A program made the translations under genes and the position numbers. The notes under the pieces are model-generated. The model did not search any database and was not told the DNA's origin. It saw only the letters and a program-made list of their open reading frames with translations. From contig JAFSLL010000203.1 in NCBI GenBank assembly GCA_017448455.1, positions 1-62,816 on the forward strand: DNA of 62,816 nt, read 5' to 3'. The DNA is from Oscillospiraceae bacterium (GTDB lineage: Bacteria; Bacillota; Clostridia; Oscillospirales; Oscillospiraceae). Below, one piece after another: positions 10,827-62,816 of the stretch; the first letter of the stretch is position 1, and the number at the start of each line of letters is the position of its first letter.

Positions 10827-10832
10827 CTTCGG

Positions 10833-14726: not shown

Positions 14727-14735
14727 ACGGCAAAA

Positions 14736-14776: not shown

Positions 14777-14785
14777 CAGGGAAGA

Positions 14786-16824: not shown

Positions 16825-16841
16825 GAGCAGGCCCTCATAAA

Positions 16842-16875
16842 GAACACCGCCCGCCCTTTGGGCGAGCGGTGTTCC
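16842..16875 (-). terminator. Hairpin between nrfA and resB
   Basis: On the minus strand, GAACACCGCTCGCCC pairs with GGGCGGGCGGTGTTC (15 bp, one wobble/mismatch) and only TTTAT follows. It may be a leaky terminator or mRNA-processing element setting nrfA above resB-ccsA expression. Confidence 0.55.
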
Positions 16876-16895
16876 CTGACTGTAATCTATTCGGT

Positions 16896-28972: not shown

Positions 28973-30154
28973 ATGGCAACAGTACAGCTGAAGAACATCA
29001 AGAAAGTCTACCCCTTTGTCAGCGGCGAGCAGAAGAAAAGCAAGAAGAAGAAAGCGGATGAGCCTGAGAAGAAAAAGGTCAATCTGCAGATCACCGATGA
29101 AGGCGTTGTCGCGGTGCAGGAGTTCAACCTGGACATCGCGGATAAGGAATTCATCGTTCTGGTCGGCCCTTCCGGCTGCGGAAAATCCACGACGCTGCGC
29201 ATGGTCGCGGGTCTCGAAGAGATCTCCGGCGGTGAACTGATTATCGACGGCAAGGTCATGAATGATGTCGCGCCGAAGGACCGCGATATCGCCATGGTTT
29301 TCCAGAACTACGCCCTCTATCCCCACATGACGGTCTATGACAACATGGCCTTCTCCCTGAAGCTCCGGAAAGAGCCGAAGGATGTCATCGACAAGAAGGT
29401 CCGTGAGGCGGCCGAAATCCTCGACATCACCCAGTACCTCGAGCGCAAGCCCAAGGCGCTGTCCGGCGGCCAGCGCCAGCGTGTGGCCATCGGCCGCGCG
29501 ATCGTGCGTGACCCGAAGGTCATGCTGATGGACGAGCCTCTTAGTAACCTGGACGCGAAGCTGCGTAACGAGATGCGTGCCGAGATCATCAAGCTCCGTG
29601 AGCGCATCAACACCACCTTCATTTATGTTACCCATGACCAGACCGAGGCCATGACGCTGGGCGACCGGATCGTCATCATGAAGGACGGCTACATCCAGCA
29701 GATCGGCACCCCGCAGGAAGTCTTCAACCACCCGGCGAACCTCTTCGTCGCGGGCTTCATCGGCATGCCCGTCATGAACATGTTCGACGGCAGACTGACC
29801 CGCGAAGGCGACAAATACTTCGTCGAGGTCGGCGGCTACAAGACCGAGCTCGCCCCCGAGAAGGAAGCGCGCCTGCTGAAGAACGATGTCAAGAGCCAGG
29901 ATGTCATCCTCGGCGTCCGTCCGGAGCACACCGACATCTCCGCCGAAGGCGTCACCGCAAAGGTGGACGTGAGCGAAATGATGGGCTCCAGCGTGCATCT
30001 GCACGTCACCGCGGAGGGCCGCGATGTCATCATCATTGTCCCGACCATCGACATGAAGGGCAACTACGCGATGGGCGACACCGTCCACTTCTCCTTCAAG
30101 GGCAATGTGGCCCACGTCTTCTCCAAGGAGACCGAGAAGAACCTCGAGTTCTGA
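28973..30154 (+). CDS. MsmK/UgpC-type carbohydrate ABC transporter ATPase
   Basis: A 393-residue ATP-binding subunit of the CUT1 family, which powers import of oligosaccharides or glycerol-3-phosphate. Walker A is GPSGCGKST (about 63-71), the Q-loop [14 protein letters not shown], the signature [14 protein letters not shown], Walker [17 protein letters not shown] and the switch [15 protein letters not shown]. The C-terminal TOBE/regulatory domain has LGVRPEH. A Lys/Glu-rich insertion of about 30 residues ([15 protein letters not shown]) splits the first strand from the second. ATG 28973 fits the family start [14 protein letters not shown], but its SD is weak. No permease or binding protein is adjacent, so it may be a shared ATPase. 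The structured leader suggests special control. Confidence 0.9.
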
Positions 30155-48335: not shown

Positions 48336-49487
48336 TTACAGTCCGACCGCCGCCAGCAGCTCTTCTGTGCGGTTACAGTCCTCCCAGCGTACGCCGAGGT
48401 CTTCTCTTCCCATATGTCCATAGGCGGCAAGACGGCGATAGATCGGCTTGCGCAGGTCAAGATCACGGATGATGGCGCCGGGGCGAAAATCAAAAACCTT
48501 TGAGACTGCTTCACTCAGCACACCGTCGGGGATTCTTCCGGTACCAAAGGTTTCAACCAGAATGCTGACCGGCTGTGCTACGCCGATGGCATAGGCGAGC
48601 TGAATCTGGCAGCGCTTCGCGAGACCGGCGGCGACTACGTTCTTAGCCGCCCAGCGTGCGGCATAGGCAGCAGAGCGGTCTACCTTGGTAGGGTCTTTGC
48701 CCGAAAAGGCACCGCCGCCATGAGGAGCGCTCCCGCCGTAAGTGTCAACAATGATCTTTCTTCCGGTAAGACCGGAGTCCCCCTGCGGGCCTCCGATCAC
48801 GAATCGACCAGTCGGATTGACAAAGATCTTCGTATGTTCATCAAGAAGTCCTGCAGGAACGGTCGGCTGGACCACGAGCCGGATCATGTCGTCCCGGATG
48901 CGTTCCAGACTCACATCCGGAGCATGCTGGGTGGAGAGAACAATGGTGTCCACCCGAACCGGATTTCGATTCTCATCATATTCCACCGTAACCTGCGTCT
49001 TTCCATCAGGACGCAGATAGTCCACCTGGCTGGTTTTGCGGACTTCTGTCAGACGGCGGGCAAGCTTGTGTGAGAGAGAGATTGCCAGCGGCATCAGTTC
49101 AGGTGTCTCATCACAGGCATAACCGAACATCATTCCCTGGTCACCTGCCCCGCCTACCTCGTCGTTTGTCCCGAGCGCAATGTCCGAGGACTGTTCGTCG
49201 ATATTGACGATGATCCCGCAGGTATCGCAGTCAAAGCCATATTTGGCGCGGTCATATCCGATCTCCCGAATGACCTCGCGGGCAATCTTCTGGATATCCA
49301 CATAACAGCTGGTGCTGATTTCACCCATAATGTGGACAAGACCGGTAGATGCCGTTGTCTCGCAGGCAACCCGTCCCATGGGATCCTGCTCCAGGATCGC
49401 GTCGAGGATGGCATCGGAGATCTGGTCACAGATCTTATCCGGATGTCCTTCCGTAACCGATTCGGACGTAAAGAAATAATGGCTCAT
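48336..49487 (-). CDS. metK: S-adenosylmethionine synthetase
   Basis: A 383-residue enzyme making SAM from methionine and ATP. Family motifs are [20 protein letters not shown] (6-25), [12 protein letters not shown], and the P-loop-like [19 protein letters not shown]. Length is normal. It is controlled by a SAM-I riboswitch in its leader with an intrinsic terminator 17 bases before the ATG, so excess SAM stops transcription. It is monocistronic. Confidence 0.98.
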
Positions 49488-49549: not shown

Positions 49550-49645
49550 GCCTCATCTTTCGTTCACCGCCGGATTTGGCACCTTGCCTGAAACGCAGGT
49601 TGCCGGGCTTCACAGGGCCGTTCCCTCCACCACTCTTGATAAGGT
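49550..49645 (-). ncRNA. SAM-I riboswitch (S box) aptamer
   Basis: On the minus strand the leader shows the S-box core in order: CTTATCAAGAG and GGTGGAGGGAAC, then CCCTGTGAAGCCCGGCAACC, GGTGCCAAATCCGGC and GATGAGG, which closes P1 against CTTATC. Binding SAM favours the terminator at 49504-49532. The position before metK is classical. Confidence 0.96.
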
Positions 49646-49715: not shown

Positions 49716-51632
49716 TCAGGGGCGAAAACTCATGCCCCCCCAGTTCATAAAGCCGCCAAAGTTCTCGCTCTGGGCATCACCGAAGGCAGCGGACACTTCC
49801 GTGAGGGTAATCTCCTCAGCAAAATCGCCGATTACGAGTGTATAGGTCTCGCCAAGCTGCATTTCCGGGCAGCTGAGCGCAACAGAAGAAAAGCTGCAGG
49901 GCACTTCATACTCCAGCAGAGCATTTCCCTTGCTGTCTTCGAGCCTCATCAGCGTTCCGGCTGCGGCGCCCCGCTTATAGCCGTAGAGGATGGAGCACTG
50001 TGTGGAAGAAGAGTCAAAGCCCTCCGCCATGGCGTAGCTTCCGCAGGCAATAACACTGCCCCCCGTAATCTCCATTCTGCCGCCGCTCTCGCTGCCGTAA
50101 TCCAGCGCGCTGTTGCTGCCGCTGTTAACCAGGCTGACACGAACTGTCCCTCCGCTGATGATGATGTCCCCGTTGGAGTCGAGGCCGTCGGCATCCCGGG
50201 CAGTCTCATTAATCACCGTCACGCTGCCGCCGCTGATATGAATCCAGGTTTCGGAGGCAGTCGTTTCTTCTCCGCCGACAAAAGCCGGTGTGTCCATGTC
50301 CGGAAGGCTAAACTCGCCTTCTGCGGGAAAGTCCGGTCTCCCCATTTCTCCGTCCGGCATTGCGGGTCTTTCACCGTCAGGCATTGCGGGCGGATTTCCG
50401 TCCGGTCTTTCCGGCAGCTCCCCGTCGGGCAGCGCAGGTCTTTCTCCCCCGGGCATTGCCGGGAATGCCGACTGCTCCCCTGCCTCAGAACTCTCCGGCT
50501 CTCCGCCTGCCTGCATGGCTGGCATCCCACCGCCGGGCATTCCGCCACCAAAGGAAAAACCGCCGCCATTGGCATTCAGGCCATCATCTTCAGGATAAAT
50601 CGTGATATCCCCGCCGGAAATATCAATGGTGACCGCCTCGATGCCTTCATAGCAGGCCGGTATTTCCACTTTTCCGCCGGAAATTGCAACCGAGGCATCG
50701 GCATGGATCCCATCGTCCGCGGCACTGACCGTCAGATCGCCGCCGCTCATCAAAACGCTGCCGGAGGCGGAGATGCCGTCCTTTTCCGCTTCTACCGAGA
50801 TGCTGCCGCCGGCGAGTGTCAGGTTGAACCCGGCAGAAATACCGTCATCCGCGGCGGATATGTTCAGTTTACCGGACTCGATATAAAGCTCGCTTTCCGG
50901 TCCGTTCAGATCCACGCCGTCATCGGCTGCTGTCAAATCCAGATCCGCTGCCATGATGCGCAGTCCGTCATTGGCATGGAGAGCATCACGCGCAGCATTC
51001 ACGCGGATCGTCCCGCCAGTGATGACGAGGTCATCGTTCGCCGCAATCCCATGTCCGGCAGGGGATTCAATACGAAGAGTCCCGCTTCCGTTCACCGTCA
51101 GATCATCACGCGCAAAGAGCGCCGCATCGACGCCGGTGTTCTGCAGTTCTTCCGAGAGAGCAGTCGAGCACAGGAGGTTATCTGTTCCTTCCGCAAGTGT
51201 CAGGAAAACCTTGTCCGCCTGCTCCACCCGGATGCAGGCATCCCTTGTACTGTGCAGTTCCGCTCCGTTGAGCTGAATCCATACTTTGGCAGTGTTGTCG
51301 GTATCCACGAGAATGCTGCCGTCATCCAGCGTACCGGAAACCACATATTTCCCGGCACTGCTGATCACGACATTCCCGTCATAAGCGTAGGCTCCGCCTC
51401 CGGAGACCGCAGCCCGATCTCCGCGAAGAAGAATCTGTGTCGCGCCGGCAGTATCCCAGCTTCCTTTGCGGTCATTGGCCGTAAAATAGGCATTGCCCTC
51501 ATTCGCCTCTGCATCCTCGTCCACAATGATCTGAATTCCATAGGCTTCCCCGTTCATAAAGAGGACCGTCAGCAGGACCGTGAGAATCAGGACAAGAATG
51601 CAGATGAGATCAATATGTCGGTTTGTGGACAT
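49716..51632 (-). CDS. Cthe_2159-type carbohydrate-binding surface protein
   Basis: A 638-residue protein with an N-terminal signal anchor (about 8-27). A long parallel beta-helix (about 85-355 and 450-560) is made of repeats such as ISGGKVEI, AADDGI and AEKDGIS. The carbohydrate-binding Cthe_2159 family, whose Clostridium thermocellum member binds cellulose-like and pectic polymers with Ca2+, has this look. The two halves are separated by a Gly/Pro/Met-rich low-complexity insert (about 356-445) of PAMPDGE-like units. A beta sandwich ends the chain. It is third in a VTC-DUF4956-Cthe_2159 operon, 14 bases after DUF4956. A role in surface attachment or polymer binding is inferred. Confidence 0.8.
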   Translation of the reverse strand: MSTNRHIDLICILVLILTVLLTVLFMNGEAYGIQIIVDEDAEANEGNAYFTANDRKGSWDTAGATQILLRGDRAAVSGGGAYAYDGNVVISSAGKYVVSGTLDDGSILVDTDNTAKVWIQLNGAELHSTRDACIRVEQADKVFLTLAEGTDNLLCSTALSEELQNTGVDAALFARDDLTVNGSGTLRIESPAGHGIAANDDLVITGGTIRVNAARDALHANDGLRIMAADLDLTAADDGVDLNGPESELYIESGKLNISAADDGISAGFNLTLAGGSISVEAEKDGISASGSVLMSGGDLTVSAADDGIHADASVAISGGKVEIPACYEGIEAVTIDISGGDITIYPEDDGLNANGGGFSFGGGMPGGGMPAMQAGGEPESSEAGEQSAFPAMPGGERPALPDGELPERPDGNPPAMPDGERPAMPDGEMGRPDFPAEGEFSLPDMDTPAFVGGEETTASETWIHISGGSVTVINETARDADGLDSNGDIIISGGTVRVSLVNSGSNSALDYGSESGGRMEITGGSVIACGSYAMAEGFDSSSTQCSILYGYKRGAAAGTLMRLEDSKGNALLEYEVPCSFSSVALSCPEMQLGETYTLVIGDFAEEITLTEVSAAFGDAQSENFGGFMNWGGMSFRP

Positions 51633-51646
51633 CTGATCCGGCCTCC

Positions 51647-52318
51647 TCAGCCCATATAGTCTCCGTTATAGCTGACCAGGACAGCAGACTGTACACCTTC
51701 AATTTCCGCAAGCTCATTGATAAAATCGGTATTGTCATCTCTCAGGCGCACTTCAAGATTCAGCTCCACCGCACCGCGTCGGGCTGTTTTGCTCTTCACG
51801 GCACAGCGTTTTGTATGCTGAAGGAGGAAAGACATGGCATCTTCTTCGCTCTGGGTCCCGTCACAGCTGAGAACAACAATATAGGGATTGGCATGGGACT
51901 TGCGGTTGACAAAAATCAGCAGGATGACGCCGATAAAGAGGCTTCCGAAAACCGCAAGCGGAATCATGCCGGCAGCCAGAACGATACCGACGGCAATCGC
52001 CCAGAACAGAAAGGCGATATCCAGAGGCTCCTTGATCGCCGTGCGAAAACGCACAATGGACAGGGCACCGACCATACCGAGGGAGAGAACAACGTTGGAG
52101 GTGACCGCCAGAATGACCAGCGTGGTAATCATCGTCAGGGCAACCAGCGTAACGCCGAAGCCGGAGGAATACATGACGCCGGAATACGTTCTCTTATAGA
52201 CGAAAAAGATAAACAGGCCGACACCGAAGGCCAACAGCATGGCAATGGCCATATCCAGGATGCTGATGCTGGTCACATTTTCCAGAAAGCTGGATTTGAA
52301 AATGTCCTGAAAGTTCAT
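51647..52318 (-). CDS. DUF4956 membrane protein
   Basis: A 223-residue membrane protein with three or four helices near the N-terminus (about 20-40, 47-68, 70-88, 101-130). The conserved block SLGMVGALSIVRFRTAIKEP follows within the membrane region, and then a cytoplasmic domain with ferredoxin-like alternation (about 140-223). This matches DUF4956. The function is unknown. The family is routinely next to VTC-type polyphosphate polymerase and CotH genes, which suggests one membrane machine. It is 21 bases after the VTC gene. Confidence 0.85.
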   Translation of the reverse strand: MNFQDIFKSSFLENVTSISILDMAIAMLLAFGVGLFIFFVYKRTYSGVMYSSGFGVTLVALTMITTLVILAVTSNVVLSLGMVGALSIVRFRTAIKEPLDIAFLFWAIAVGIVLAAGMIPLAVFGSLFIGVILLIFVNRKSHANPYIVVLSCDGTQSEEDAMSFLLQHTKRCAVKSKTARRGAVELNLEVRLRDDNTDFINELAEIEGVQSAVLVSYNGDYMG

Positions 52319-52339
52319 AAACGGAATTCCTTTCTCGTA

Positions 52340-53026
52340 TCAGTCATAAATGCGGCATTGGGCGTACTTCGAAAACGCCGCTGCGCGACGGTTGGGAACC
52401 TGAACGGCCAACCGGATGATATCCGGCAGATAGGCGCCCCATTTCACTTCCATAATCATGGGAGCGTCGCCGGCAGGGACGGTTATGCAGTCCGGGTTCA
52501 GAAAGTCCGTGCTGCCGAGGCCTGTTCGGATATTGTAGTCAAAGGTTACACGGACATGACCGGGATGGTAAACAAAGGGCTCGCGGGTGTAGTCGACAAT
52601 GGTCTTCGGGCGGAGCGACTGTGAACGCATCTTACAGTAAAGTTCCTGCACCAGCGGTCGTCCGCTCTCCATCATCCAGTCGAGCTCTCCGTCCACAATC
52701 TTCTGCGCTTCCTCCGCCGTCAGATCGGCAACGGCTTTGGTTCCAAGCCCGTTTCGGCGGGACTTCTTCTCCAGATGAATAACGGAGGTATCCCCGTTAT
52801 AATAACGGATCCGAAACTTTTCCCGCATGTTGACACCGTCGATTTTTTCACGCAGCGCTTTGTCCCCGGGGGTATCAAAATAGAGACTGCGGATGGTATA
52901 TTTTCCGTTTACCGCATGCGGATCGGGTTCCGCGACCGCACGCAGGCGCGGCCAGATACACAGATAGTCGGAATAATTGATTTCATGTTTCCATTCGTGC
53001 CGGTAGGGAATATCGATTGTACTCAC
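52340..53026 (-). CDS. Polyphosphate polymerase (VTC) domain protein
   Basis: A 228-residue cytoplasmic protein with the CYTH/VTC tunnel fold. The strand motifs RHEWKHEI, RSLYFDTPG, KFRIRYYNG, HLEKKSR, VDYTREPF and MEVKWG carry the basic and acidic residues that bind triphosphate and metal in Vtc4. Yeast Vtc4 makes polyphosphate from ATP; activity of short bacterial relatives is not established. The start is GTG 53026 with AGAGAAG before it, since a nearby ATG is out of frame. It is first in the operon behind a TTGCAA-17-TAAAAT promoter. Confidence 0.87.
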   Translation of the reverse strand: MSTIDIPYRHEWKHEINYSDYLCIWPRLRAVAEPDPHAVNGKYTIRSLYFDTPGDKALREKIDGVNMREKFRIRYYNGDTSVIHLEKKSRRNGLGTKAVADLTAEEAQKIVDGELDWMMESGRPLVQELYCKMRSQSLRPKTIVDYTREPFVYHPGHVRVTFDYNIRTGLGSTDFLNPDCITVPAGDAPMIMEVKWGAYLPDIIRLAVQVPNRRAAAFSKYAQCRIYD

Positions 53027-53174: not shown

Positions 53175-53203
53175 AAAAAATCCGCCTTTCGGCGGATTTT
53201 TCT
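53175..53203. terminator. Bidirectional-type terminator ending the Amadori locus
   Basis: AAAAATCCGCC / GGCGGATTTTT around a TTTC tetraloop. It sits 22 bases past the stop of the last gene in the 53-62 kb minus-strand locus. Confidence 0.9.
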
Positions 53204-53224: not shown

Positions 53225-54124
53225 TCAGGAATCCAGGGCTTCCTGTATCAGATCCCACGCCTCGCGGGCATAACGGTCCGCTTCCAGCCAATACGGTTTT
53301 TGACAGATTTCTATTGTGACATACTGTTCATAACCCGCCTCTGCAAGATCCTTGAGATACTGTATCAGCGGCAGATTTCCCTCTCGAAATCCTATGTGCC
53401 CGCTGACACTGCGGCCAAGACTGTAGATTCCCGGCATGTGTTTTTCATTTTGGGTTTTCTCCCGAAGAACGGTATTACCCAGGTGTACATGCCTGATGTT
53501 TTCAAGTCCGAGAACGCAAATGTCTTTCTCAATGCTCTCATCAAACTGGGCCATCTGCACAGTATCCAACATCACTTTAAAATTCGGATGATCCACGAGT
53601 CCCAGAACTTCACGCTGCTGAAATGCGGTATTCATAAAGAGTGCGTCCGTTTGCGCCTGTGTCTCCAGAGCGAGCGTAACGCCGTTATCTGCCGCGGTTC
53701 GGGAAAGCTCTTCTGCGGATGCTACAAAACGGTCCCGGATTGCCTCCGGGTTTTCTTCCATGGTACCATTCCCGGGGCACAGGAGCATTGTCGGCGCGCC
53801 AAGCATGGCTGCTGCCTCTAAGGCCCGTTTCATATGTTCGACGCTCCAGTGTCGAAGAGAAGCTTCGGCAGAACTGATGTTGACAGGATAGTTGTTCTGT
53901 TCCGGGCAGAAGCATACAACGTTGAGCCCGGCATCCTTGATCTTTCTCCCTGTCTCTCTCAGGTAGTCCGAACTTTGAATTCCTACCAGGAAATGCGGTT
54001 TCGCGCCCCAAATCTCTATATTGGCAATCTCCAATTCCCGAACAGAATTGAGAAAATGGTCGAAGGACCAAGCGGTATAATGGTAGTTCCCAATGGCGAT
54101 CTGTTTTCGTTTCAGCTTGTGCAT
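53225..54124 (-). CDS. Sugar-phosphate isomerase/epimerase-like TIM barrel protein
   Basis: A 300-residue xylose-isomerase-like TIM barrel. Metal-site residues lie on the expected strands: LALETQAQT (E), MLDTVQM (D), HVHLGN (H) and VTIEICQKPYW (E). IWGAKPHFLVG near the N-terminus and PEQNNYPVNI resemble FrlC (IWGGRPH, PETNGYPYN), the fructoselysine 3-epimerase. It is the last gene of the locus and the most divergent of its three epimerase-like proteins. ATG 54124 has the SD AAAGGAG; the longer frame has none. The 112-base gap before it holds no other gene. Confidence 0.8.
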   Translation of the reverse strand: MHKLKRKQIAIGNYHYTAWSFDHFLNSVRELEIANIEIWGAKPHFLVGIQSSDYLRETGRKIKDAGLNVVCFCPEQNNYPVNISSAEASLRHWSVEHMKRALEAAAMLGAPTMLLCPGNGTMEENPEAIRDRFVASAEELSRTAADNGVTLALETQAQTDALFMNTAFQQREVLGLVDHPNFKVMLDTVQMAQFDESIEKDICVLGLENIRHVHLGNTVLREKTQNEKHMPGIYSLGRSVSGHIGFREGNLPLIQYLKDLAEAGYEQYVTIEICQKPYWLEADRYAREAWDLIQEALDS

Positions 54125-54236
54125 ATGATTCTCCTTTGAAGCAAACGGAGTCTCTGGCAAATCTCTTTGGACCAGCAGTCTATCCATTTGTTCTGCCCGC
54201 TGTTATTTGACGAATCTTTCGATCCGCTGGATGGAA

Positions 54237-54653
54237 TCAGAGGGCAAGCAGCTTTTTAGCCTCTTCCTGAACGGCTTTGACCTGTGCCGGCGTCATATAT
54301 TTGATTTCACTGTTGTCCATGGAACAGTCAGCACGCTGAACATAGACAATTTTGGAATCCTTCTGAGTAATGGAGTAAAACCACTGCTCTTTCCCCACAT
54401 GGGCAACTTTTCCGATTTCCATGGGAGTAAGTTCAATATTGACAAAAACGCCATCTTTCTCGTCAGCAGTGATCAGAAGCGCTTTCCCCGCAACCAGCAC
54501 AAATTGCTCATCGCTTGTGTGATGGATTTCCAGTTTTTCAACACCGGCAATATCATTATCCGGCTTCCAGTTCTTAATACTTACGCTCCACTCGTCGTTT
54601 TTGTAGACAACTTTGATGCCTTCGGCATTGTTTTCAAAGATTTCAGGTTTCAT
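54237..54653 (-). CDS. Small cupin-like protein of the Amadori locus
   Basis: A 138-residue soluble protein. The core (VEKLEIHHTSDEQFVLVAGK, then ALLIT and a second strand pair with KEQWFYSI) resembles a single cupin barrel, with HH and E as possible metal ligands. The C-terminus is helical (TPAQVKAVQEEAKKLLAL). ATG 54653 has the SD AGGAAAAG. It lies 17 bases after the second kinase gene. It might be a sugar mutarotase or isomerase helper, but the family is not recognised, so the function is open. Confidence 0.55.
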   Translation of the reverse strand: MKPEIFENNAEGIKVVYKNDEWSVSIKNWKPDNDIAGVEKLEIHHTSDEQFVLVAGKALLITADEKDGVFVNIELTPMEIGKVAHVGKEQWFYSITQKDSKIVYVQRADCSMDNSEIKYMTPAQVKAVQEEAKKLLAL

Positions 54654-54670
54654 TTGTCTTTTCCTTTCAT

Positions 54671-55459
54671 TCATTCATACGGATTAAAAATCTGAATAAT
54701 TCTGGTAGCCTGCGCTTTGCCGCGCGCCATGCACCGCGGCACGCTTTCACCGAGGCTGAGCCCATAAGTGAAGCCCGCGATATACGAATCGCCTGCGCCG
54801 ACGGTGTTGCAAACTTCCACCTTCTCTGCACCTTCGCGGAAGAACTCTTTTCCATCCCACGCGAGGCTTCCGCTCTCTCCAAGCATTGCGATCACACAGC
54901 CGGCACCTTTTGCCTGTGTTTTGACAAGAAATTCCCGGATATAGTCGTCATCGCTCTCATAAGAGAAGAAAGCATAATCAATATAGGGCAGAACCAGATC
55001 ATTGGTTTCCAAAGTCAGCCGTTTGGAAAAATCGTAAACCCAGACTTGCCCGGGGCGCTTGATCGCAGGAAGATAACGATGAACTTTACACCAGCGCTCA
55101 CAATAAACGATGTCAAACTCGCCCACAAAAGCCTGATCTTCTTCAGAAAGCTCGATCTCTTCCATGGCGTTTCCGACAAATTCAAGATGAACGCGGTCGC
55201 CGTCTACAATGGCCATTTTTGCCATTCCGGTCGGTTTCTCCGACTGCTTGAGAATGCGCAGGGGGATCCCACGTTCAGCAAGCTTTTCCTTTAACGCGTC
55301 GGCAAAAAAGTCATTGCCTAAAATGGTCATCTCCGTGATCTCTCCGCCCAGCGCCCGATAATTAAACGCAAAGTCAATGCTGTTTCCCGTTGTATAAAAC
55401 CGGTCCTGCTTATAATAGACATCTATGCAGTTATCCGCCATGGCAATGGTTCTTTTCAT
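54671..55459 (-). CDS. PfkB-family sugar kinase, FrlD-like (second copy)
   Basis: A 262-residue ribokinase-fold kinase. The start MADNCIDVYYK resembles the FrlD/FraD N-terminus (AIGDNCVD). Motif 1 is the variant TTGNSIDFAFNYRALGG, and motif 2 is CNTVGAGDSYIAGF with catalytic base D224. At 262 residues it matches FrlD, which phosphorylates fructoselysine on C6. A second, 298-residue kinase is in the same locus, so the two may act on different glycated amines. It follows YjbQ by 11 bases. Confidence 0.85.
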   Translation of the reverse strand: MKRTIAMADNCIDVYYKQDRFYTTGNSIDFAFNYRALGGEITEMTILGNDFFADALKEKLAERGIPLRILKQSEKPTGMAKMAIVDGDRVHLEFVGNAMEEIELSEEDQAFVGEFDIVYCERWCKVHRYLPAIKRPGQVWVYDFSKRLTLETNDLVLPYIDYAFFSYESDDDYIREFLVKTQAKGAGCVIAMLGESGSLAWDGKEFFREGAEKVEVCNTVGAGDSYIAGFTYGLSLGESVPRCMARGKAQATRIIQIFNPYE

Positions 55460-55470
55460 GTATTTCCCCC

Positions 55471-55902
55471 TTATTCACCCATCACATAGACGAGATATCT
55501 GCGACGCTTAATCCCGTCAAATTCACAGAAATAGAGATCTGCGGCGCTGCCAAGCACCACTTTGCCATCCACCAGAGGAAGCACGCAATGATTTCCCGTG
55601 AGAAGAGATTTGAGATGACCGGGTGTATTTCCACCTATGGTTCCATAGCTTGGCAGGTAGTGGTTATGATTGAAAGGATAGTCAGACGGAATCAACCGTT
55701 CCAGCTGTTCCTCAATATCCTTTTCAACACAGGGCAGACTCTCATTGATGGTAATACCGGTCGTTGTGTGCAGTGTGATGACAAAAACTATACCGTTTTT
55801 TATTCCGCTGCCCTCGGCAAAGCGTTTCACCTGCTCTGTTATTTTCACCATCTGGAACTCAGCATCTGCAATGACTGTGAAGTATTCCAGGCACGTATTC
55901 AC
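55471..55902 (-). CDS. YjbQ family protein (UPF0047)
   Basis: A 143-residue trimer-forming YjbQ protein. Conserved blocks are TLHTTTGITINES, GHLKSLLTGNHCVLPLVDG, VLGSAADLYFCEFDG and the ending RRRYLVYVMGE. The family has been given a weak thiamine-phosphate synthase activity, but its real role is not settled. The start is GTG 55902, overlapping the amidohydrolase stop by 4 bases, so it is translationally coupled inside the locus. Its conserved His/Glu pocket could serve chemistry on sugar-amine adducts (speculation). Confidence 0.85.
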   Translation of the reverse strand: MNTCLEYFTVIADAEFQMVKITEQVKRFAEGSGIKNGIVFVITLHTTTGITINESLPCVEKDIEEQLERLIPSDYPFNHNHYLPSYGTIGGNTPGHLKSLLTGNHCVLPLVDGKVVLGSAADLYFCEFDGIKRRRYLVYVMGE

Positions 55903-56762
55903 AGCAGCACCTCTTTCCCGAGAAAGCGCAAAGCATTCCTGCAGCAGATCTTTTCCATAACATCTGCGCGAAGATTCAACCCATCAAGACCCCTTTTCGC
56001 ACGAACCGGGCGAATACGCGGACTGTCGGATCCGAACATCAGTTTATCAGCAAGGTTGTGCTCCACCCAGAATTCACCCATATCTTCTTTGTATACTTTG
56101 TGATAAAGCTGGAGCGGTCCGTCAAAGCTCATCAGGGCTGTATTGGCAAAGGCATTCGGATATTTGATTAACAGTGCTGCTGTTTCCTGTACCCAGGGCC
56201 AACCGGTATGCGTAAGGCAGAAATTGATCCCGGAAAAGGCAGCTATCACCTCTTCAAAATCCGCCGGTCGAGAATAACGGGAGAACGCATCCCTTTCCAG
56301 ACAAATACCACTGTGGAAAATAACCGGCTTCGCGTATTCTCCGCATATCTCACAAAGCCGGAAAACCCTTTCATCATAGGGGAAAAGCCTGCATTTTGCG
56401 GTATTCAGCGCCATACCCGCAAGTCCTTGTTCCGTAAAGGCAAAACGGAGTTTTTCTTCTGCATCGGGACTGCGGGGATCTACCGATGCAAAGCCGATAA
56501 ACATCTCCGGTTCCAGTTCTGTCAAATGCGCAATCTCATCGTTGCTGATTGCAGCCTGCCCTTTCTCAAAGGAGCAATCTTCCCCCAAAAGGAAAACGCA
56601 GCGGATATCTGCCAAAGCCAGCTGTTTTTTCAGCAAATCCAGGTCAATCGGTGACATGAGATGATAGTTCATCTCATTACAGCGAAATCGAAAACGGTCC
56701 CCGTCTTCGCAGATCGGTGCAAATAATGCAGGATGGATATGCGTATCAATTACCGTGCTCAT
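55899..56762 (-). CDS. Amidohydrolase-family metal hydrolase
   Basis: A 287-residue amidohydrolase-2/TatD-like TIM barrel. The metal motif is DTHIHPA (HxH at about 8-10), with further histidines in VIFHSGI and CLTHTGWPW and the acidic residue in MFGSDSPRIRP. The likely reaction is hydrolysis of an amide or lactone, or decarboxylation; the substrate is unknown. Overlaps by 4 bases on both sides, with epimerase B upstream and yjbQ downstream, put it firmly in the pathway. The known frl and fra loci as I remember them do not carry such an enzyme. Confidence 0.8.
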   Translation of the reverse strand: MSTVIDTHIHPALFAPICEDGDRFRFRCNEMNYHLMSPIDLDLLKKQLALADIRCVFLLGEDCSFEKGQAAISNDEIAHLTELEPEMFIGFASVDPRSPDAEEKLRFAFTEQGLAGMALNTAKCRLFPYDERVFRLCEICGEYAKPVIFHSGICLERDAFSRYSRPADFEEVIAAFSGINFCLTHTGWPWVQETAALLIKYPNAFANTALMSFDGPLQLYHKVYKEDMGEFWVEHNLADKLMFGSDSPRIRPVRAKRGLDGLNLRADVMEKICCRNALRFLGKEVLL

Positions 56763-57586
56763 GCCCGATAATCCTTCCACTCCTCGGTATTGGCCACGAG
56801 CCACGCAATGCACTGATCAACAGCTTTGTCAGGGTCAATATAATACTGACGGTCGGTCAGTTCAAAGCAGCAGACCCCCTGATAATTCAACCGGCGGAGG
56901 TCATCGTAATACTTCTTCATGGGAAAAGTACCGTGGCCCGGAACTGTATGGCCCCGATCGTTAAAGTGAACATAGCCCATCTTTTCACCGAGACTGTTAA
57001 AATAATCGTCGATACTTTGTCCGGCAAAGGTCATCTGATCCGTATCCACCATGCCGAGGACATTCTCATACCTCAGCTCCTGAATCATCCGGGCGATATC
57101 GTCACTGGTATTCAGCACCTGGGTTGTAGTATCTTTGCACTCCTCTAAAAACAGCGTCACTCCTTTGCGGGAGCTGTATTCCGCCAACTGAAAAAGGCTG
57201 TCCCGCGTATTCTCCCATGCCTCTTCAGGCGGCGCATCAAAATAGCCAAAACCGATGCTGATCTGTACATTCGGGCATTCCAGATATTCCGCTGTGTCGA
57301 TTGCGCGCTGGTAATAGCGAAGAGAAGAATTGCGGGTCTCTCGGTTCTGGGTGGCAAAGTTGCAAGGATAGGTACAATTTTCCGGTGTAATGGCATAAAC
57401 TTTGAGGTTGCGGCGGCGAATCTCTTTGTCCAGCTCGATCAGATCCTTCAGCGCGTAGTCAAATGGATTCAGCTGCGGAGCACTCATGTAGAGGTCAAAG
57501 GTATCAAAAGGAGACCTCTCCAGTTTGTCCAGATACTTTTGAGGACTGTAGCGCAGATAGTGAAGTGTCATCGGGATAAATTTCAT
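56759..57586 (-). CDS. FrlC-like sugar isomerase/epimerase (B)
   Basis: A 275-residue xylose-isomerase-like TIM barrel, close paralogue of the gene just upstream (shared MKF..M..HYLRY and APQLNPFDY blocks). The FrlC-like block AITPENCTYPCNFATQNRE is present. Metal residues are in FLEECKDTT (E), MVDTDQM (D), YVHFND (H) and CFELTDRQYY (E). FrlC converts psicoselysine to fructoselysine; a second specificity may explain the duplicate. It overlaps both neighbours by 4 bases. Confidence 0.85.
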   Translation of the reverse strand: MKFIPMTLHYLRYSPQKYLDKLERSPFDTFDLYMSAPQLNPFDYALKDLIELDKEIRRRNLKVYAITPENCTYPCNFATQNRETRNSSLRYYQRAIDTAEYLECPNVQISIGFGYFDAPPEEAWENTRDSLFQLAEYSSRKGVTLFLEECKDTTTQVLNTSDDIARMIQELRYENVLGMVDTDQMTFAGQSIDDYFNSLGEKMGYVHFNDRGHTVPGHGTFPMKKYYDDLRRLNYQGVCCFELTDRQYYIDPDKAVDQCIAWLVANTEEWKDYRA

Positions 57587-58398
57587 TTTACCGCCTCCAA
57601 TACAGTCGTAAGATAGTTGATATAAGCATCTGTCGCCTTGTCCGGATCAATGTAATACTCGCGGCTGCAAAGCTCGCAGGAACACCATCCGTTGTAGCCT
57701 CTCGCTTTCAGGGTGTCATAATACTCTTTCATCGGCAGACCGCCGGTGCCCGGGATCGTGTGTGCTGCATCACTGAAGTGCACGAAGCCATAGCGTGTAC
57801 CCAGATTATCCATATAGTCATTGATATTCTCCCCCGCAAGCGACATCTGGTCGGTATCGGAAAGGCCCAAAAGGTTGTCCGCGCCAACGTCATCCAGGAA
57901 TCGGCGAAGTTCTTTGCTTGTCACGATCAGATTGGTCGTTGTCGTTTTGCAGGTCTCCAGAAAAATCGTTACACCTTTTCTCTTGGCATAGGTGCACAGC
58001 TGTTGAAAGGCGTCAACCTGTCGCGCCCATCCTTCACTCCGATCACCATCAAAGTAACTGGAGCCGGGGCACATTTGAATATGGGGGAAGCCAAGGAAGG
58101 ATGCCGTATCAATCATGCGCTGATAATAGCGAATGGTCGATTCCCACATAATCTGATTGGATGTGCCGAGATTGACCGGATATGCGCAGTTTTCCGCTGT
58201 GAGCACATAGGGTGTCAAATGCCGGTCTTTGATGTCCCGGTCAAGCTGAATCAGATCACTGAGATTGTAATCAAAGGGATTAAGCTGCGGCGCGGTGCAA
58301 TAGATATCCAGCCCGTCAAGCGGCGAACGCTCCATCTTGTCCAAATACTTGCGAATCGGATAACGCAAATAATGGTAGCTCATTAATGTAAATTTCAT
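57583..58398 (-). CDS. FrlC-like sugar isomerase/epimerase (A)
   Basis: A 271-residue TIM barrel with LTAENCAYPVNLGTSNQ, the FrlC-like substrate block, and metal residues in FLETCKTTT (E), LSDTDQM (D), FVHFSD (H) and CELCSREYY (E). ATG 58398 is chosen over a 24-base longer frame because AAGGGAACC precedes it and the paralogue also starts at MKF. Its stop overlaps the next paralogue by 4 bases. The two copies have diverged well beyond a recent duplication. Confidence 0.85.
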   Translation of the reverse strand: MKFTLMSYHYLRYPIRKYLDKMERSPLDGLDIYCTAPQLNPFDYNLSDLIQLDRDIKDRHLTPYVLTAENCAYPVNLGTSNQIMWESTIRYYQRMIDTASFLGFPHIQMCPGSSYFDGDRSEGWARQVDAFQQLCTYAKRKGVTIFLETCKTTTTNLIVTSKELRRFLDDVGADNLLGLSDTDQMSLAGENINDYMDNLGTRYGFVHFSDAAHTIPGTGGLPMKEYYDTLKARGYNGWCSCELCSREYYIDPDKATDAYINYLTTVLEAVK

Positions 58399-58442
58399 AG
58401 CGGTTCCCTTCTCCCGCCTCATAGACGGGGATTAGAATTGAC

Positions 58443-58504
58443 GTGTCTGCGGATCTGCCGGCAGGCAAGGACCGCAGACACGCCGTTTCCCGTTGAGCAA
58501 CGGG
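58443..58504 (-). promoter_or_regulatory. Two hairpins in the transporter-epimerase gap
   Basis: GTGTCTGCGG / CCGCAGACAC (58443-58481, 10 bp, with an inner CTGCCGGCAG palindrome) and CCCGTTG / CAACGGG (58489-58504). Neither has a T tract. They may stabilise or process the mRNA so transporter and enzymes are made at different levels. Confidence 0.5.
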
Positions 58505-58532
58505 GTTGTCATAGTCTGGATTTTTAAAAGCT

Positions 58533-59861
58533 TTAGAAGACCAGGGAGCCAAGCAGATAAGCCGCCAGAGCGTCTACAACGGCCATTACAAGTCCGGGAA
58601 GGAGATAACTGGTGTTGAATACGAACTTGCCGATCTTGGTGGTGCCAGCCGTGTCAAAGGCGATGGCAGCAAGGCTCTCAGATGCGGCCGGAATCAGGAA
58701 GTGGGAACCGATGGTAGCCCAGCCTGCAAGCAGAACGGGAGTGCTGATGCCAAGTGCAATACCCAGAGGAACAACGATCGCGGTGGTGGATGCCTGGGAG
58801 GTGGTGATGTTGCCTACCAGATAACATGCGATAATAAAGATCCAGGGATACTTGTTTGTAAAGCCGGAGACAACTTCAGTCAGATAGGAGGACTGGGAGC
58901 CGATGAAGATGTTGACCATCCAGCAGAGGCCGATAACGATAACAGCAGCAAACACTCCGGAGCGGAAGACCTGGGTGCTTAGAATGTCGTCAGGCTTCTG
59001 ATCCTTCATCATAAGAGCAATAACGGCTGCAGCAACCAGCATGAAGATCTGAATGATGTCTGTCATTCCAAGTTTATTGCCGTTTCCGAGCACTGGGCGG
59101 AGAGCGGGAATCGCACCGAGCAGTACGACGCAGACCATGGCGCCCATGAAAACGGCCACGGAAGCCTTGCTGACTTTGCTGAATCTTGAAAAATCAATGA
59201 CCTTCTCTTCGTGCTTCTCTTCAATCTTCAGCGTACCGTCGGCAACACGGCGCTGGAACTCAGGATCATCTGCCAGCTCCTTGCCTTTCTTGAGCATAAC
59301 GACACCGGCGGCGATGGAACCGAGAAGAGTGGCAGGGATCATAACCAGGAGAATCTGCACCAGACCGACACCGGCGGACTCTTCCATGAAGCCGATCAGC
59401 GCAGCCATCGCGGCTGCGAGCGGCGTGGCGCAGACTGCGTTCTGAGAGGACACGATGGATGCCGCGATCGGGCGTTCAGGACGGATGCCGTTTTCAATGG
59501 CAAGTTCGTTCACGATGGGCAGGATGCTCCAAACGATATGGCCGGTGCCACAGCAGAATACAAAGATCCACGACACGATCGGAGCCAGAACGGTGACAGA
59601 TTTCGGATGCTTGCGGAGGATTTTTTCCGCTATCGCGACAAGATAATCGATACCGCCGATAGCCTGCATGGCTCCGCCCGCCAGAACGACACAGAGAATG
59701 ATACGCAAAACCGTGAGAGGAGGATCGGACATCTGCGCGCGGAAGATAAAGGTGAAGATAAACACACCAATACCACCGGCAAGCGTGAGGAAGACGCCAC
59801 CTTTACGGACACCCCAGAAAATCAGGGCGAGCAGAACAATCAGTTCAATCCAGAATAGCAT
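58533..59861 (-). CDS. Dcu-family anion transporter of the Amadori locus
   Basis: A 442-residue polytopic membrane protein with the pattern of DcuA/DcuB anaerobic C4-dicarboxylate carriers: N-terminal MLFWIELIVLLALIFWGVRK, then GGIDYLVAIAEKILRKHPK, VLAPIVSWIFVFCCGTGHI and RPIAASIVSSQNAVCATPL. Length fits the family. Within a fructosamine locus it is more likely to import a glycated amino acid with a carboxylate than succinate or fumarate. From memory, the Salmonella fructose-asparagine locus also relies on a transporter of this general type; this is not verified here. AAAGGAG precedes the ATG. No ABC or AAT permease, the usual frl carriers, is present. Confidence 0.8.
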   Translation of the reverse strand: MLFWIELIVLLALIFWGVRKGGVFLTLAGGIGVFIFTFIFRAQMSDPPLTVLRIILCVVLAGGAMQAIGGIDYLVAIAEKILRKHPKSVTVLAPIVSWIFVFCCGTGHIVWSILPIVNELAIENGIRPERPIAASIVSSQNAVCATPLAAAMAALIGFMEESAGVGLVQILLVMIPATLLGSIAAGVVMLKKGKELADDPEFQRRVADGTLKIEEKHEEKVIDFSRFSKVSKASVAVFMGAMVCVVLLGAIPALRPVLGNGNKLGMTDIIQIFMLVAAAVIALMMKDQKPDDILSTQVFRSGVFAAVIVIGLCWMVNIFIGSQSSYLTEVVSGFTNKYPWIFIIACYLVGNITTSQASTTAIVVPLGIALGISTPVLLAGWATIGSHFLIPAASESLAAIAFDTAGTTKIGKFVFNTSYLLPGLVMAVVDALAAYLLGSLVF

Positions 59862-59952
59862 GCTTTTTACTCCTTTCGTTTTTCAGGGCAGTCTTTCTGC
59901 CTCTCTGAATCTCCCGCCTGTTATATCCCTGGACGGGGCAGGGAATTTCACC

Positions 59953-60849
59953 TTATTTTCTGTTGTCTATGATGCGGCCGTCAATCGGTACGCCGTAACC
60001 GAAGGCACCTTCCATACTGCAGACTTTTGCGGCGAATGCCGCGCCTTCCTTCATGGCTGGAACCAGATCCTCCGAGAGATCCATGCTGCCATCCAGAGCT
60101 AATTCGCCGGCAGCCTGCTTTTTCAGCAGATAACTCAGGAACGTCGCAAAGTAAGAATCTCCCGCACCCATCGTATCAAATACATCGTCTGAGAGAACCG
60201 CCGGCGCATAATAAAAGCGGTTCCGATAGAGAAGATAGGAGCCCTCCTCACCGATCGTCCCCAGGACCAGTGGTACACCGTAGGAAGCTGTTTTTTTCAT
60301 CTCCCGTTCACGCTCTTCGTCGCTGAGATGCGCACAGGAAAGGAGTGCAACCTGAATATAAGGACAGATTTTTGCCAGATACTCGTCTGTCCAGCGCAGG
60401 GAGAAGTCATAGGCAATGGGAACACCCGCAGAGGCTACCAGAGGGAGTTCATCTTCGATATAGGCATTCAGATCGGAATAGATCAGATCAAAGCTTTTGA
60501 TATAAGTCAAATCTTCTTCGGTGAAGGCATAGGGATTGACCGCCGCAACGCCTCCCTTGTTGGAACCGATGAATACACGGTCGCTTCCCGCAAGGGTGAC
60601 ACAGGCGAAGCCATTCTCTCCTTCATAATTTCTGCAGTGACTGAAATCGATCTTCAAATCCGCCAGTGTTCTGCGCAGGCAGTCAGCAACCTCATCAGAA
60701 CCGAATTTTCCCAGGAACGCTGCATCTACGCCGTTCATGACTGCATAAGCGCAGGTATTAACGGCCTGACCGCCGGGATACATCTTCCCTCGGGAGAGAT
60801 ACTTGTCACAAACGTCATCGCCGATGGCTAAGAGTCTGGCCTTTCTCAT
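59953..60849 (-). CDS. PfkB-family kinase, FrlD/FraD-like
   Basis: A 298-residue ribokinase-fold kinase. LLAIGDDVCDKYL (6-18) and KMYPGGQAVNTCAYA (22-36) match FrlD (YPGGNAVNVA). Motif 2 is DTMGAGDSYFATF with base D231. It should phosphorylate C6 of the imported fructosamine, giving the substrate of the adjacent FrlB-like deglycase, whose gene ends 21 bases upstream. The 91-base gap to the transporter gene holds only an SD. It differs clearly from the second kinase at 54.7 kb. Confidence 0.85.
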   Translation of the reverse strand: MRKARLLAIGDDVCDKYLSRGKMYPGGQAVNTCAYAVMNGVDAAFLGKFGSDEVADCLRRTLADLKIDFSHCRNYEGENGFACVTLAGSDRVFIGSNKGGVAAVNPYAFTEEDLTYIKSFDLIYSDLNAYIEDELPLVASAGVPIAYDFSLRWTDEYLAKICPYIQVALLSCAHLSDEEREREMKKTASYGVPLVLGTIGEEGSYLLYRNRFYYAPAVLSDDVFDTMGAGDSYFATFLSYLLKKQAAGELALDGSMDLSEDLVPAMKEGAAFAAKVCSMEGAFGYGVPIDGRIIDNRK

Positions 60850-60870
60850 CGTACTGCTCCTTCTCCGTAA

Positions 60871-61881
60871 TCAGTATGCAACCTTCCACATGTAGCGGCG
60901 GGTGCTGAGCGGATGACAACGGGCTTCGGCAAGTGCATGGTTGTAGATGGGATAAACATTGTTAAACAGCGAGTGATTGAAATAATCCACAACAGAGGCG
61001 TCGATGACGGACAATCCCAGTTCTTTGGCATCCAGGACTTCCAGCCGTTTGCCATAGGTGCGAAGGAACCGCAGCGCGCGTTCATCGAGTTCGCGGGTTG
61101 TCCCTTCGTTAACCTGAATGACGAAAGGAACGTTGGCATCGGTCACTTCAAACGGGCCATGGAAGAATTCTCCCGTGTGAATGCAGGCGGACTGGATCCA
61201 CTGCATCTCCATGAATATGCAGATGCTTTCCATATAAGCGGCACCCCAAGCCGCTCCACTTCCCATGGTGTAGAGGAAGCTGTCATTTTTGTACTCCTGC
61301 GCAAAGGCAACAGCGCGGTCGGCAACCTGCGCGCGGGCTTTCCGGATCACGCTTGTAATGAGTTCCAGACCACGGTAGTACGCCTCGTAGTGTGCATAGC
61401 CCTCGCTGCGCTCGACAGTCTCTACAGCGAGCGTAAGTGCGCAGAGCGTTTTCTCTCCGGCGTAGTCGATATCACCCGCCAGATGATCCGGACTGGCATC
61501 AAATTCATACCGGACAACATAATCCCCATAGGGTATAATCTCAGAGTCTTCCAGCCATGTCAGAAGAATAACTGCCGCGCCCTTTTCCTTCCCGAGACGC
61601 GCTGCCGCGATCGTCTCCGGCGTATTGCCTTTATGGCAGGAAAGGCATATAATGGAATTGACTCCAAAATCCTTTGGTGTGCTGTGCAGAAACTCGTTAC
61701 TGCTGATGACAGCGCTGCGAAGAACCGTGCTCTCACGCTGCATAAAGTTTGCTGCAGGTACCAGAGCTCCGAAAGAGCCGCCGCATCCTACATAGTACAG
61801 AGATTTGACGCCGCCTACGGCTTTCTTGTCTTCGAAGATTTTCGCGGTAATCTCCCGAATTTGTTCAGCCTGCTTAACCAT
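60871..61881 (-). CDS. SIS-domain fructosamine-6-phosphate deglycase, FrlB/FraB-like
   Basis: A 336-residue protein with two SIS domains (about 20-150 and 190-320), related to the glucosamine-6-phosphate synthase isomerase domain. The first has YYVGCGGSFGALVPA. The second carries MEMQWIQSACIHTGEFFHGPFE; E225 and H241 are 16 apart, matching the E214/H230 pair reported for Salmonella FraB (from memory). FrlB and FraB split the 6-phosphate Amadori compound into glucose-6-phosphate and free amino acid. The gene is first in the minus-strand locus, with AGGAGGAG before ATG and a good promoter at 61946. Confidence 0.87.
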   Translation of the reverse strand: MVKQAEQIREITAKIFEDKKAVGGVKSLYYVGCGGSFGALVPAANFMQRESTVLRSAVISSNEFLHSTPKDFGVNSIICLSCHKGNTPETIAAARLGKEKGAAVILLTWLEDSEIIPYGDYVVRYEFDASPDHLAGDIDYAGEKTLCALTLAVETVERSEGYAHYEAYYRGLELITSVIRKARAQVADRAVAFAQEYKNDSFLYTMGSGAAWGAAYMESICIFMEMQWIQSACIHTGEFFHGPFEVTDANVPFVIQVNEGTTRELDERALRFLRTYGKRLEVLDAKELGLSVIDASVVDYFNHSLFNNVYPIYNHALAEARCHPLSTRRYMWKVAY

Positions 61882-61945
61882 TTTTCTCTCCTCCTAATTC
61901 ATCGCTTTTGAATTTGTATTATATTATCTTGCTTTGTATGGCTTT

Positions 61946-61974
61946 ATATTAAGCACGGTCAATACAATTGTCAA
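61946..61974 (-). promoter_or_regulatory. Promoter of the Amadori operon
   Basis: Minus-strand TTGACA (61969-61974), a 17-base spacer and TAATAT (61946-61951). The leader to ATG 61881 is about 60 nt and has no obvious hairpin. Confidence 0.75.
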
Positions 61975-62127
61975 CAGTTTTTATCTCTCTTTTTTGTTTT
62001 CAGCGTTTTCAACAAAGAGAGAGTTTGATAGTTGGTGGTTTTGACGAATTCATTCTTCCTGATATCACTCGACAATTGGTAACACAACTGTTCTGTTTTG
62101 TAATTGTATTATTCAGAAGGTTTTTCC

Positions 62128-62156
62128 TTTACAACTTGAAAGGGATTTGCTATAAT
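62128..62156 (+). promoter_or_regulatory. Promoter of the GntR regulator gene
   Basis: TTTACA, a 17-base spacer and TATAAT, about 43 bases before ATG 62199. Confidence 0.75.
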
Positions 62157-62198
62157 TTGTATCATATTTCTACAGCGCCAAATGAAAAGGATGTTATT

Positions 62199-62816
62199 AT
62201 GGATCAGATCAACAAGACCAGCTCTGTGCCTCTTTACGAACAACTGTATGAAAAACTGAAAGACGCCATTGACAACGGCAGTTATCCTGCCGGCAGCAGG
62301 CTGCCAACCGAAGCGGAGATCAGCGAAGAATACCAGGTCAGTCGGGTTACCGTCCGTAAGGCAATGGAGATTCTGGAAAAGGAAGAATACCTGGTTCGCA
62401 AGGTTGGAAAAGGTACCTTTGTGAAAGAGAACAAGCTTTCGCGCACAATGTCGTCGACTGTTATGGGCTTCTCTGAAATGTGCCGGAGCATGGGATTCAC
62501 GCCAGGAGCAAAGACCGTTAAGATTGATTTTGAAGATCCCTCCGTCAAGGATGCCGCAAGGCTGGGCATTCCGGAGGACAGCAAAATCCTCGTAATCGAA
62601 CGGATTCGATACGCCGATGAGATGCCCGTTGTCTTGGAGACAACCAAATTTACGGAGGATTTCTTCTTTCTTTTTAATGAAGATCTGAACAACTGCTCCC
62701 TCTATGAGACCATTTTTAAACATATGGGAATAAGATTTACGGGATCTGCCAAACGGCTTGAGGTTGTGTTCGCAAACTATCAGGAATCCCGTTACCTTGG
62801 GATTTCTGTTGGCTAC
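62199..62816 (+). CDS. GntR-family regulator with UTRA domain (3' end outside window)
   Basis: The first 206 residues of a HutC-subfamily regulator. The N-terminal winged helix (about 8-75) has PLYEQLYEKLKDAIDNGSYP, LPTEAEISEEYQVSRVTVRK and GKGTFV. The UTRA ligand domain begins at about 80 (MGFSEMCRSMGFTPGAKT) and contains ERIRYADEMPVVLETTKF, then SLYETIFKHMGIRFTG. Only the last about 40 residues are missing. It is divergent from the deglycase operon, and FrlR and FraR are GntR/UTRA regulators, so it likely represses the locus until a phosphorylated sugar-amine binds UTRA. ATG 62199 has AAAAGGATG as SD; ATG 62191 is out of frame. Confidence 0.9.
   Translation, partial: MDQINKTSSVPLYEQLYEKLKDAIDNGSYPAGSRLPTEAEISEEYQVSRVTVRKAMEILEKEEYLVRKVGKGTFVKENKLSRTMSSTVMGFSEMCRSMGFTPGAKTVKIDFEDPSVKDAARLGIPEDSKILVIERIRYADEMPVVLETTKFTEDFFFLFNEDLNNCSLYETIFKHMGIRFTGSAKRLEVVFANYQESRYLGISVGY

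Follow-up and report, generated by a model that had tools for sequence, protein, structure and literature searches.

The window analyzed here is one whole contig of an Oscillospiraceae bacterium (G000:C182; 62,816 bases), taken from a 3.5-Mb assembly in 308 contigs that is 92% complete and 7% contaminated. An earlier note on this DNA had described, toward its end, an enlarged locus for the catabolism of Amadori compounds, made up of ten minus-strand genes, a divergent GntR/UTRA gene and a shared terminator. All of these features are present. Ten minus-strand open reading frames (ORFs) run from 61881 down to 53225 in the order SIS, K1, DCU, FC1, FC2, AMH, YjbQ, K2, CUP, FC3, and the terminator follows at 53176-53201. 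Searches against Pfam and NCBIfam confirmed the families proposed for the two kinases, the Dcu-type carrier, the three FrlC-like barrels, the amidohydrolase (AMH) and YjbQ. The features, with the evidence for each, are as follows.

62199..62816, plus strand: divergent GntR/UTRA regulator (Pfam GntR 3.6e-21, UTRA 1.6e-21), its 3' end lost at the contig end
61882..62198, no strand: regulator/operon intergenic region, with promoter-like sites at 61974-61946 (minus) and 62128-62156 (plus) that are consensus matches only
60871..61881, minus strand: SIS, FraB-type deglycase (identity to FraB, solved chain 9otj, tree clade)
59953..60849, minus strand: K1, FraD-type PfkB kinase (identity to FraD, kinase trees)
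58533..59861, minus strand: DCU, Dcu-family FraA-like carrier (Pfam DcuA_DcuB 3.9e-127)
57583..58398, minus strand: FC1, FrlC-like barrel 1 (listed ORF start 58422; AP_endonuc_2 1.1e-34; 21.6% identity to FrlC)
56759..57586, minus strand: FC2, FrlC-like barrel 2 (AP_endonuc_2 2.5e-37; 22.9% to FrlC)
55899..56762, minus strand: AMH, amidohydrolase of the module (listed ORF start 56813; Amidohydro_2 1.5e-25)
55471..55902, minus strand: YjbQ/UPF0047 protein of the module (UPF0047 2.7e-31)
54671..55459, minus strand: K2, PfkB kinase of the module, FrlD-related (fructoselysine 6-kinase model, 245.4 bits against a cut-off of 247)
54237..54674, minus strand: CUP, CA_C3497-type protein of 145 aa (profile match to solved 3d0j)
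53225..54124, minus strand: FC3, FrlC-like barrel 3 (listed ORF start 54187; AP_endonuc_2 3.3e-37; 24.2% to FrlC)
53176..53201, no strand: intrinsic terminator (perfect symmetrical stem, A and T runs on the two sides)

Compared with homologues, three of the listed starts seem too long, and the likely starts are 58398 for FC1, 56762 for AMH and 54124 for FC3. When started at 56762, AMH overlaps FC2 by 4 bases. The gaps between the listed ORFs range from -55 to +110. A repeat search near the regulator returned only short repeats, none of them a clear operator between the regulator and the operon. CUP had no Pfam or NCBIfam match; its profile matched 3d0j, which is CA_C3497 of C. acetobutylicum (E 2.8e-80), and weakly acireductone dioxygenase (E 0.017).

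All ten genes were found in the same order, with protein identities of 79-94%, in loci L047 (the same as L037), L048 and L049, and nine of the ten in L050, where FC3 was not found. This identical order shows that the layout is not due to chance. L037/L047 is a sister contig from the same genus as the window, with the ten genes 80-92% identical; there, a BtpA-family gene and an FGGY-kinase gene come after the regulator.

The deglycase, first kinase and carrier

The deglycase had been called FrlB/FraB-like. The second half of that label stands: SIS is 54.8% identical to the annotated 6-phosphofructose-aspartate deglycase FraB of an Enterobacter plasmid. A tree of 69 rows places it inside a FraB clade of 16 rows (support 91/86), away from E. 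coli FrlB, the SIS proteins of the E. faecium type and GlmS. An FrlB-like identity was ruled out by 24.5% identity to E. coli FrlB and the separate clade; the NCBIfam FrlB model gave 78.3 bits against a cut-off of 430. Grouping with aminosugar isomerases, which would have counted against an Amadori function, was not seen with GlmS, the sole such enzyme in the tree, which forms a very long branch outside the FraB clade; the GlmS models gave 46 bits against a cut-off of 418.

The best solved relatives of SIS are chain 9otj (E 1.6e-121) and its kin, which we take to be Salmonella FraB, although the listing names the chain only "SIS domain protein". The window protein keeps the aligned Glu and His, matched to 9otj with a residue offset of 20 counted by hand; these are presumably the FraB catalytic residues, which we take to be numbered Glu214 and His230. 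Two further 9otj-related chains each differ at a single residue, one at the aligned Glu and one at a Pro close to the His, which suggests active-site mutants.

K1 is 38.5% identical to FraD and 31.5% to FrlD, and the kinase trees put it on the FraD side (100/100). DCU is 42% identical to FraA and the carriers of fra loci, 38% to DcuB and 33% to DcuA, and the top four among the plasmid records listed in its search are records with fraB matches. None of 117 other sampled genomes of the class had a Dcu carrier at E 1e-40. The carrier is nevertheless no novelty, since FraA was already described as a Dcu homologue by Ali et al. 2014 (PMC4072780). Elsewhere, a single Clostridium oryzae locus holds two FraB-clade SIS genes (L051, 4481-5467 and 12133-13152).

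Judged by homology, the core of the locus is with high confidence an Amadori-compound system of the fra type. The earlier proposal of an enlarged Amadori-type locus was thus borne out, with SIS, K1 and the carrier matching the fra rather than the frl system.

The AMH-YjbQ pair and its partners in other genomes

An AMH alignment (A1) was scanned against genome_contigs: 173 stretches matched the pattern, 109 were confirmed as relatives and 80 loci were kept. These loci are anchored on AMH, so that all co-occurrence is conditional on AMH, and many are close kin rather than independent cases. In 75 of the 80, the YjbQ start lies no more than 300 bases from AMH; L049 counts as non-adjacent solely because the ORF called for its YjbQ has a long start. 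Of the 76 loci having both genes, 27 show an overlap of exactly 4 bases between the AMH stop and the YjbQ start. Within 9 kb of AMH lie a kinase (76 loci), an FrlC-like gene (73) and a SIS gene (53), and the neighbors also include BtpA (53), FrlA-like carriers (50), FGGY kinases (35), Dcu carriers (12) and CUP (12). In 64/80, the matched gene immediately preceding AMH is FrlC-like. Forty-two loci have 7 kb or more on both sides; among these, YjbQ was found in 42, a kinase in 41, an FrlC-like gene in 40 and SIS in 38; 37 have two or more kinases, 36 have SIS, kinase and FrlA or Dcu together, 31 have BtpA and 18 FGGY.

The hosts include Faecalibacterium, Gemmiger, Clostridium, Caproiciproducens, Olsenella, Collinsella, Enorma, Levilinea and many Erysipelotrichaceae. 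The AMH-YjbQ pair is present in Bacillota, Actinomycetota and Chloroflexota; K2 was not seen in Chloroflexota. Eight of 61 genomes of the window's genus have AMH: two are of the fra type, and six carry an AMH of 35-39% identity in another run, mostly on short contigs. Those six have an FrlC-like gene before AMH in every case and a kinase and YjbQ in five each; four of the stretches were searched for an FrlA-like permease, and three of them had one (51-52% to E. coli FrlA). An AMH scan of viral_contigs gave one pattern match, none confirmed, and a search of 391 class genomes with E. coli FrlA at E 1e-90 found none. Three more distant AMH relatives, from P. putida, Haloferax and Thermomicrobium, lie outside the module clade, and their annotation lists neither YjbQ nor Amadori genes.

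A UPF0047 match was found in 95 of 196 sampled genomes of the class, and the window's own genome has a second, off-locus UPF0047/YjbQ gene (G000:C105:102690-103118). We considered whether YjbQ is a neighbor of AMH by chance and rejected this, as an AMH match was found in 0/30 class UPF0047 loci (flanks up to 1.5 kb); the 30 are the best scorers, and the recognized module YjbQs (the window's and G567:C1:1005747) scored lower and are not among them.

The AMH alignment took in 37 of 43 non-redundant AMHs plus the window, the YjbQ alignment 29 of 39 plus the window, and the kinase tree 32 of the 80 loci; the trees point the same way for all three proteins. The module AMHs group in a single clade of 39 rows, with three distant controls outside it (100/100), and the module YjbQs in one of 30 rows, separate from 31 further YjbQs of the class (100/100). 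The AMH-adjacent kinases form one clade of 31 rows (100/99), comprising 29/29 labeled adjacent and two, from L063 and L064, labeled "far" by the distance rule, whereas kinases of the FrlD and FraD types from these loci fall outside it. Although K2 of the window comes close to the fructoselysine 6-kinase cut-off, its clade is separate from E. coli FrlD and other FrlD-type kinases. The clade holds Bacillota and Actinomycetota rows and none from Levilinea (Chloroflexota).

The partners of this block vary. Its SIS genes belong to the FraB clade, a Clostridium pair (L060/L061), a Collinsella/Enorma pair or a large E. faecium-type clade, and FrlB-like ones occur in Levilinea, Caproiciproducens and Clostridium. 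Its carriers are Dcu proteins or FrlA-like ones (39-67% to E. coli FrlA, mostly above 50), or ABC systems, of the amino-acid kind in Niallia and the oligopeptide type in Petroclostridium, as judged from the translations alone. Since the block itself is the same whichever deglycase or carrier goes with it, the branch probably acts on the sugar half common to Amadori compounds. In Niallia (L131), SIS, AMH, YjbQ and K2 form one run and the sole kinase in the 9 kb shown belongs to the K2 clade (12 rows, 100/99), so the K2 product plausibly goes to SIS. The order of SIS, Dcu, YjbQ and amidohydrolase genes, suggested earlier as a check, recurs in L047-L050 with a FraB-type SIS; elsewhere the AMH-YjbQ pair accompanies other SIS types and carriers.

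It could be argued that the window simply holds two unrelated adjacent operons, a fra core (SIS-K1-DCU) and a pathway for another sugar derivative (FC1-FC2-AMH-YjbQ-K2-CUP-FC3). In Petroclostridium the branch and the SIS gene seem to lie apart: AMH-YjbQ-K2 (L059) stands at about 1.0 Mb, and genome G567, which has a YjbQ at the same place, has its SIS locus (L021) at about 1.86 Mb. Fra core and branch are, however, kept together in L047-L057 in varying orders, and the same branch accompanies FrlA/FrlD/SIS genes elsewhere, which makes this explanation quite improbable. The branch very likely belongs to the same physiology as the Amadori core, and its distribution marks the AMH-YjbQ pair, most often joined by a second kinase and FrlC, as an optional yet conserved addition to Amadori catabolism.

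A BtpA/SgcQ-family gene and an FGGY (xylulokinase-like) kinase gene recur beside Amadori genes (L037 16688-19054, L052, L053, L107 and others) and may belong to the same extension; we know of no settled enzymatic role for BtpA.

Proposed function and relation to known systems

Homology, synteny and trees support the family identities, the fra-type core and the conservation of the branch as a unit; from these we infer the substrate, the order of steps and all the AMH and YjbQ chemistry. The GntR/UTRA protein would sense an Amadori compound, the Dcu-type carrier would import it, K1, of the FraD type, would phosphorylate carbon 6, and the FraB-type SIS would split the 6-phosphate into glucose 6-phosphate and an amino acid. 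Acidic fructosyl-amino acids such as fructose-aspartate or fructose-asparagine are the most likely substrates. The branch (AMH, YjbQ, K2 and the FrlC-like barrels) would handle a variant of the sugar half that K1 and SIS cannot use: AMH and YjbQ, with an FrlC-like 3-epimerase, would make the K2 substrate, and the SIS deglycase would then split the K2 product. A fra-type locus for fructosyl-amino acids, with a conserved accessory branch that feeds in a sugar-side variant, is the reading we favor as probable. Taken alone, a specific sugar-variant role of the branch is doubtful.

The residues of the two proteins give some indication of their chemistry. Two His positions of AMH are kept in 35/38 and 34/38 sequences, and the usual catalytic Asp is Asp in 16/38 (Asn in 17, Gly in 4, Thr in 1); we take these positions to be the metal-site residues of the family. 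Hydrolysis by AMH is not a safe guess, since the usual Asp is not conserved, and we regard it as doubtful that AMH is an ordinary metal hydrolase. Sugar lactonases share its Pfam family. A lactonase role was also set aside, as the solved relatives of AMH are the uncharacterized 3irs and 3k4w, an "amidohydrolase", and then decarboxylases. In YjbQ, H45, E54, C58, D62, H79, H96, E127, D129 and R134, among others, are invariant in 30/30. E. coli YjbQ has a side activity as thiamin phosphate synthase, by the title of a cited work, and its overexpression rescues a pdxB mutant; a 2021 review calls the function of YjbQ unknown (PMC7954711).

Several observations weigh against the favored reading. The variable catalytic Asp of AMH is one, and no asparaginase (FraE) is encoded among the ten genes. 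The barrels of the window are just 22-24% identical to FrlC. The Dcu tree, with weak support (59/50), does not separate FraA from DcuA/DcuB. Four of the 42 long loci (L059, L070, L073 and L086) have no SIS nearby, and the Levilinea loci have one kinase, the one placed in the tree falling outside the K2 clade. The E. coli frl and Enterobacter fra stretches are without the AMH-YjbQ branch, as is the FraB-clade locus L019; L020, another such locus, shows no branch either, but its contig ends 1.8 kb past the kinase. Among 17 plasmid records with an FrlA relative, just one, of E. faecium, has a match to the frl-type AMH at a threshold of E 1e-35. Two FrlA loci were found in 375 genomes of the order, with AMH-YjbQ within 1.5 kb in one.

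The missing asparaginase raises the question of whether AMH takes its place, hydrolyzing the fructose-asparagine or fructose-glutamine amide to deliver the acid form to kinase and deglycase, much as Salmonella FraE converts fructose-asparagine to fructose-aspartate (PMC10100877). AMH relatives stand, however, beside FrlA-like carriers in 50/80 loci and Dcu carriers in 12/80, and fructoselysine would be expected to have no such amide. The variable Asp speaks against it as well, and the genome has an asparaginase gene elsewhere (G000:C266), along with an aspartase-like protein (40%) at C104. We consider this replacement very improbable, more so than two unrelated operons.

The main rival is damage control, in which AMH, YjbQ and K2 would remove a toxic or dead-end by-product, such as a dicarbonyl formed by spontaneous breakdown or a phospho-sugar amine that has stalled. 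Being optional and found with many deglycase types, the branch behaves as a repair function would, and 6-phosphofructose-aspartate is toxic in Salmonella fraB mutants (PMC12755824). A dedicated kinase and an FrlC-like gene next before AMH in most loci look more like a feeding route, however, and in Petroclostridium (L059) AMH-YjbQ-K2 stands beside its own GntR-type gene. On balance damage control is unlikely, and a feeding route into a fra-type core is preferred.

AMH and YjbQ, usually with K2 and FrlC, may carry out an undescribed enzymatic step of Amadori catabolism in gut Bacillota, Actinomycetota and some Chloroflexota, opening glycated compounds (sugar epimers, lactones or other sugar-side variants) beyond those of frl, fra and gfr, and giving a UPF0047/YjbQ subfamily its first physiological role. 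We hold this to be possible, a little short of an even chance. In the PMC literature, from which subscription papers are largely missing, we found no description linking YjbQ/UPF0047 or an amidohydrolase to Amadori catabolism; to that extent the earlier suggestion of an undescribed combination holds, but the order regulator-SIS-kinase-Dcu is that of the known fra system and the AMH-YjbQ pair recurs in many loci. Given a conserved extra branch, a number of gut anaerobes would have pathway steps that annotation by frl and fra overlooks. YjbQ is widespread, and a subfamily tied to one pathway would offer a direct handle on its function. Fructoselysine forms in heated food and is abundant in infant formula (PMC9749803), and gut microbes that degrade Amadori compounds would be expected to alter amino-acid supply and glycation load. 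The branch may also touch the puzzle of psicoselysine, the 3-epimer handled by FrlC, which was listed as a dead-end metabolite of E. coli and resolved there by an added transport reaction (PMC3781023).

Elsewhere in the window, a malK-I cis-regulatory RNA (28797-28978, plus strand, 134.1 bits) overlaps the listed start of ORF 28883-30154, and a SAM riboswitch aptamer (49550-49645, minus strand, 78.1 bits) lies just upstream of the minus-strand ORF 48336-49487. Three minus-strand ORFs of 638, 223 and 228 aa (49716-53026) adjoin the locus; they presumably resemble a carbohydrate-binding-domain protein, a DUF4956 membrane protein and a VTC-type polyphosphate polymerase.

Among known systems, the fructoselysine cluster of Intestinimonas AF211, a butyrate-producing gut anaerobe, shares a fructosamine kinase and deglycase with the window but has an ABC transporter, and the available part of its description names no amidohydrolase or YjbQ (PMC4697335). 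The frl operon of E. coli K-12 has the same families of SIS deglycase, PfkB kinase, FrlC-like barrel and regulator. It differs in its FrlA carrier, where the window has Dcu, in the low identities of SIS (24.5% to FrlB) and the barrels (22-24% to FrlC), and in having no AMH or YjbQ annotated. On plasmid 2 of E. faecium DO (L130), gene annotation gives amidohydrolase-YjbQ-amino acid permease-GntR-frlD-GntR-SIS. The first two genes are as in the window, whereas the SIS clade and carrier are different, the amidohydrolase is short at its start and no K2 or FrlC was matched beside AMH. After this frl-type run with YjbQ (9013-17757) comes a gene annotated as beta-galactosidase; it would fit Amadori compounds derived from lactose, such as lactulosyl-lysine.

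The closest likeness is to the fra operon of Salmonella and enterobacterial plasmids, which has a GntR regulator, a FraB-type SIS, a FraD-type kinase and a Dcu carrier. Some Clostridia are reported to use fructose-asparagine (PMC10100877), and it has been proposed that a periplasmic asparaginase may let the transporter and kinase use fructose-aspartate (PMC4072780). The window locus has no FraE, and none is listed in the Enterobacter plasmid stretch (L028), whose gene table is incomplete. The Enterobacter operon keeps the order regulator-SIS-kinase-carrier seen in the window, with its regulator on the same strand as the operon rather than divergent, and to this plan the window adds seven further genes (FC1, FC2, AMH, YjbQ, K2, CUP and FC3).

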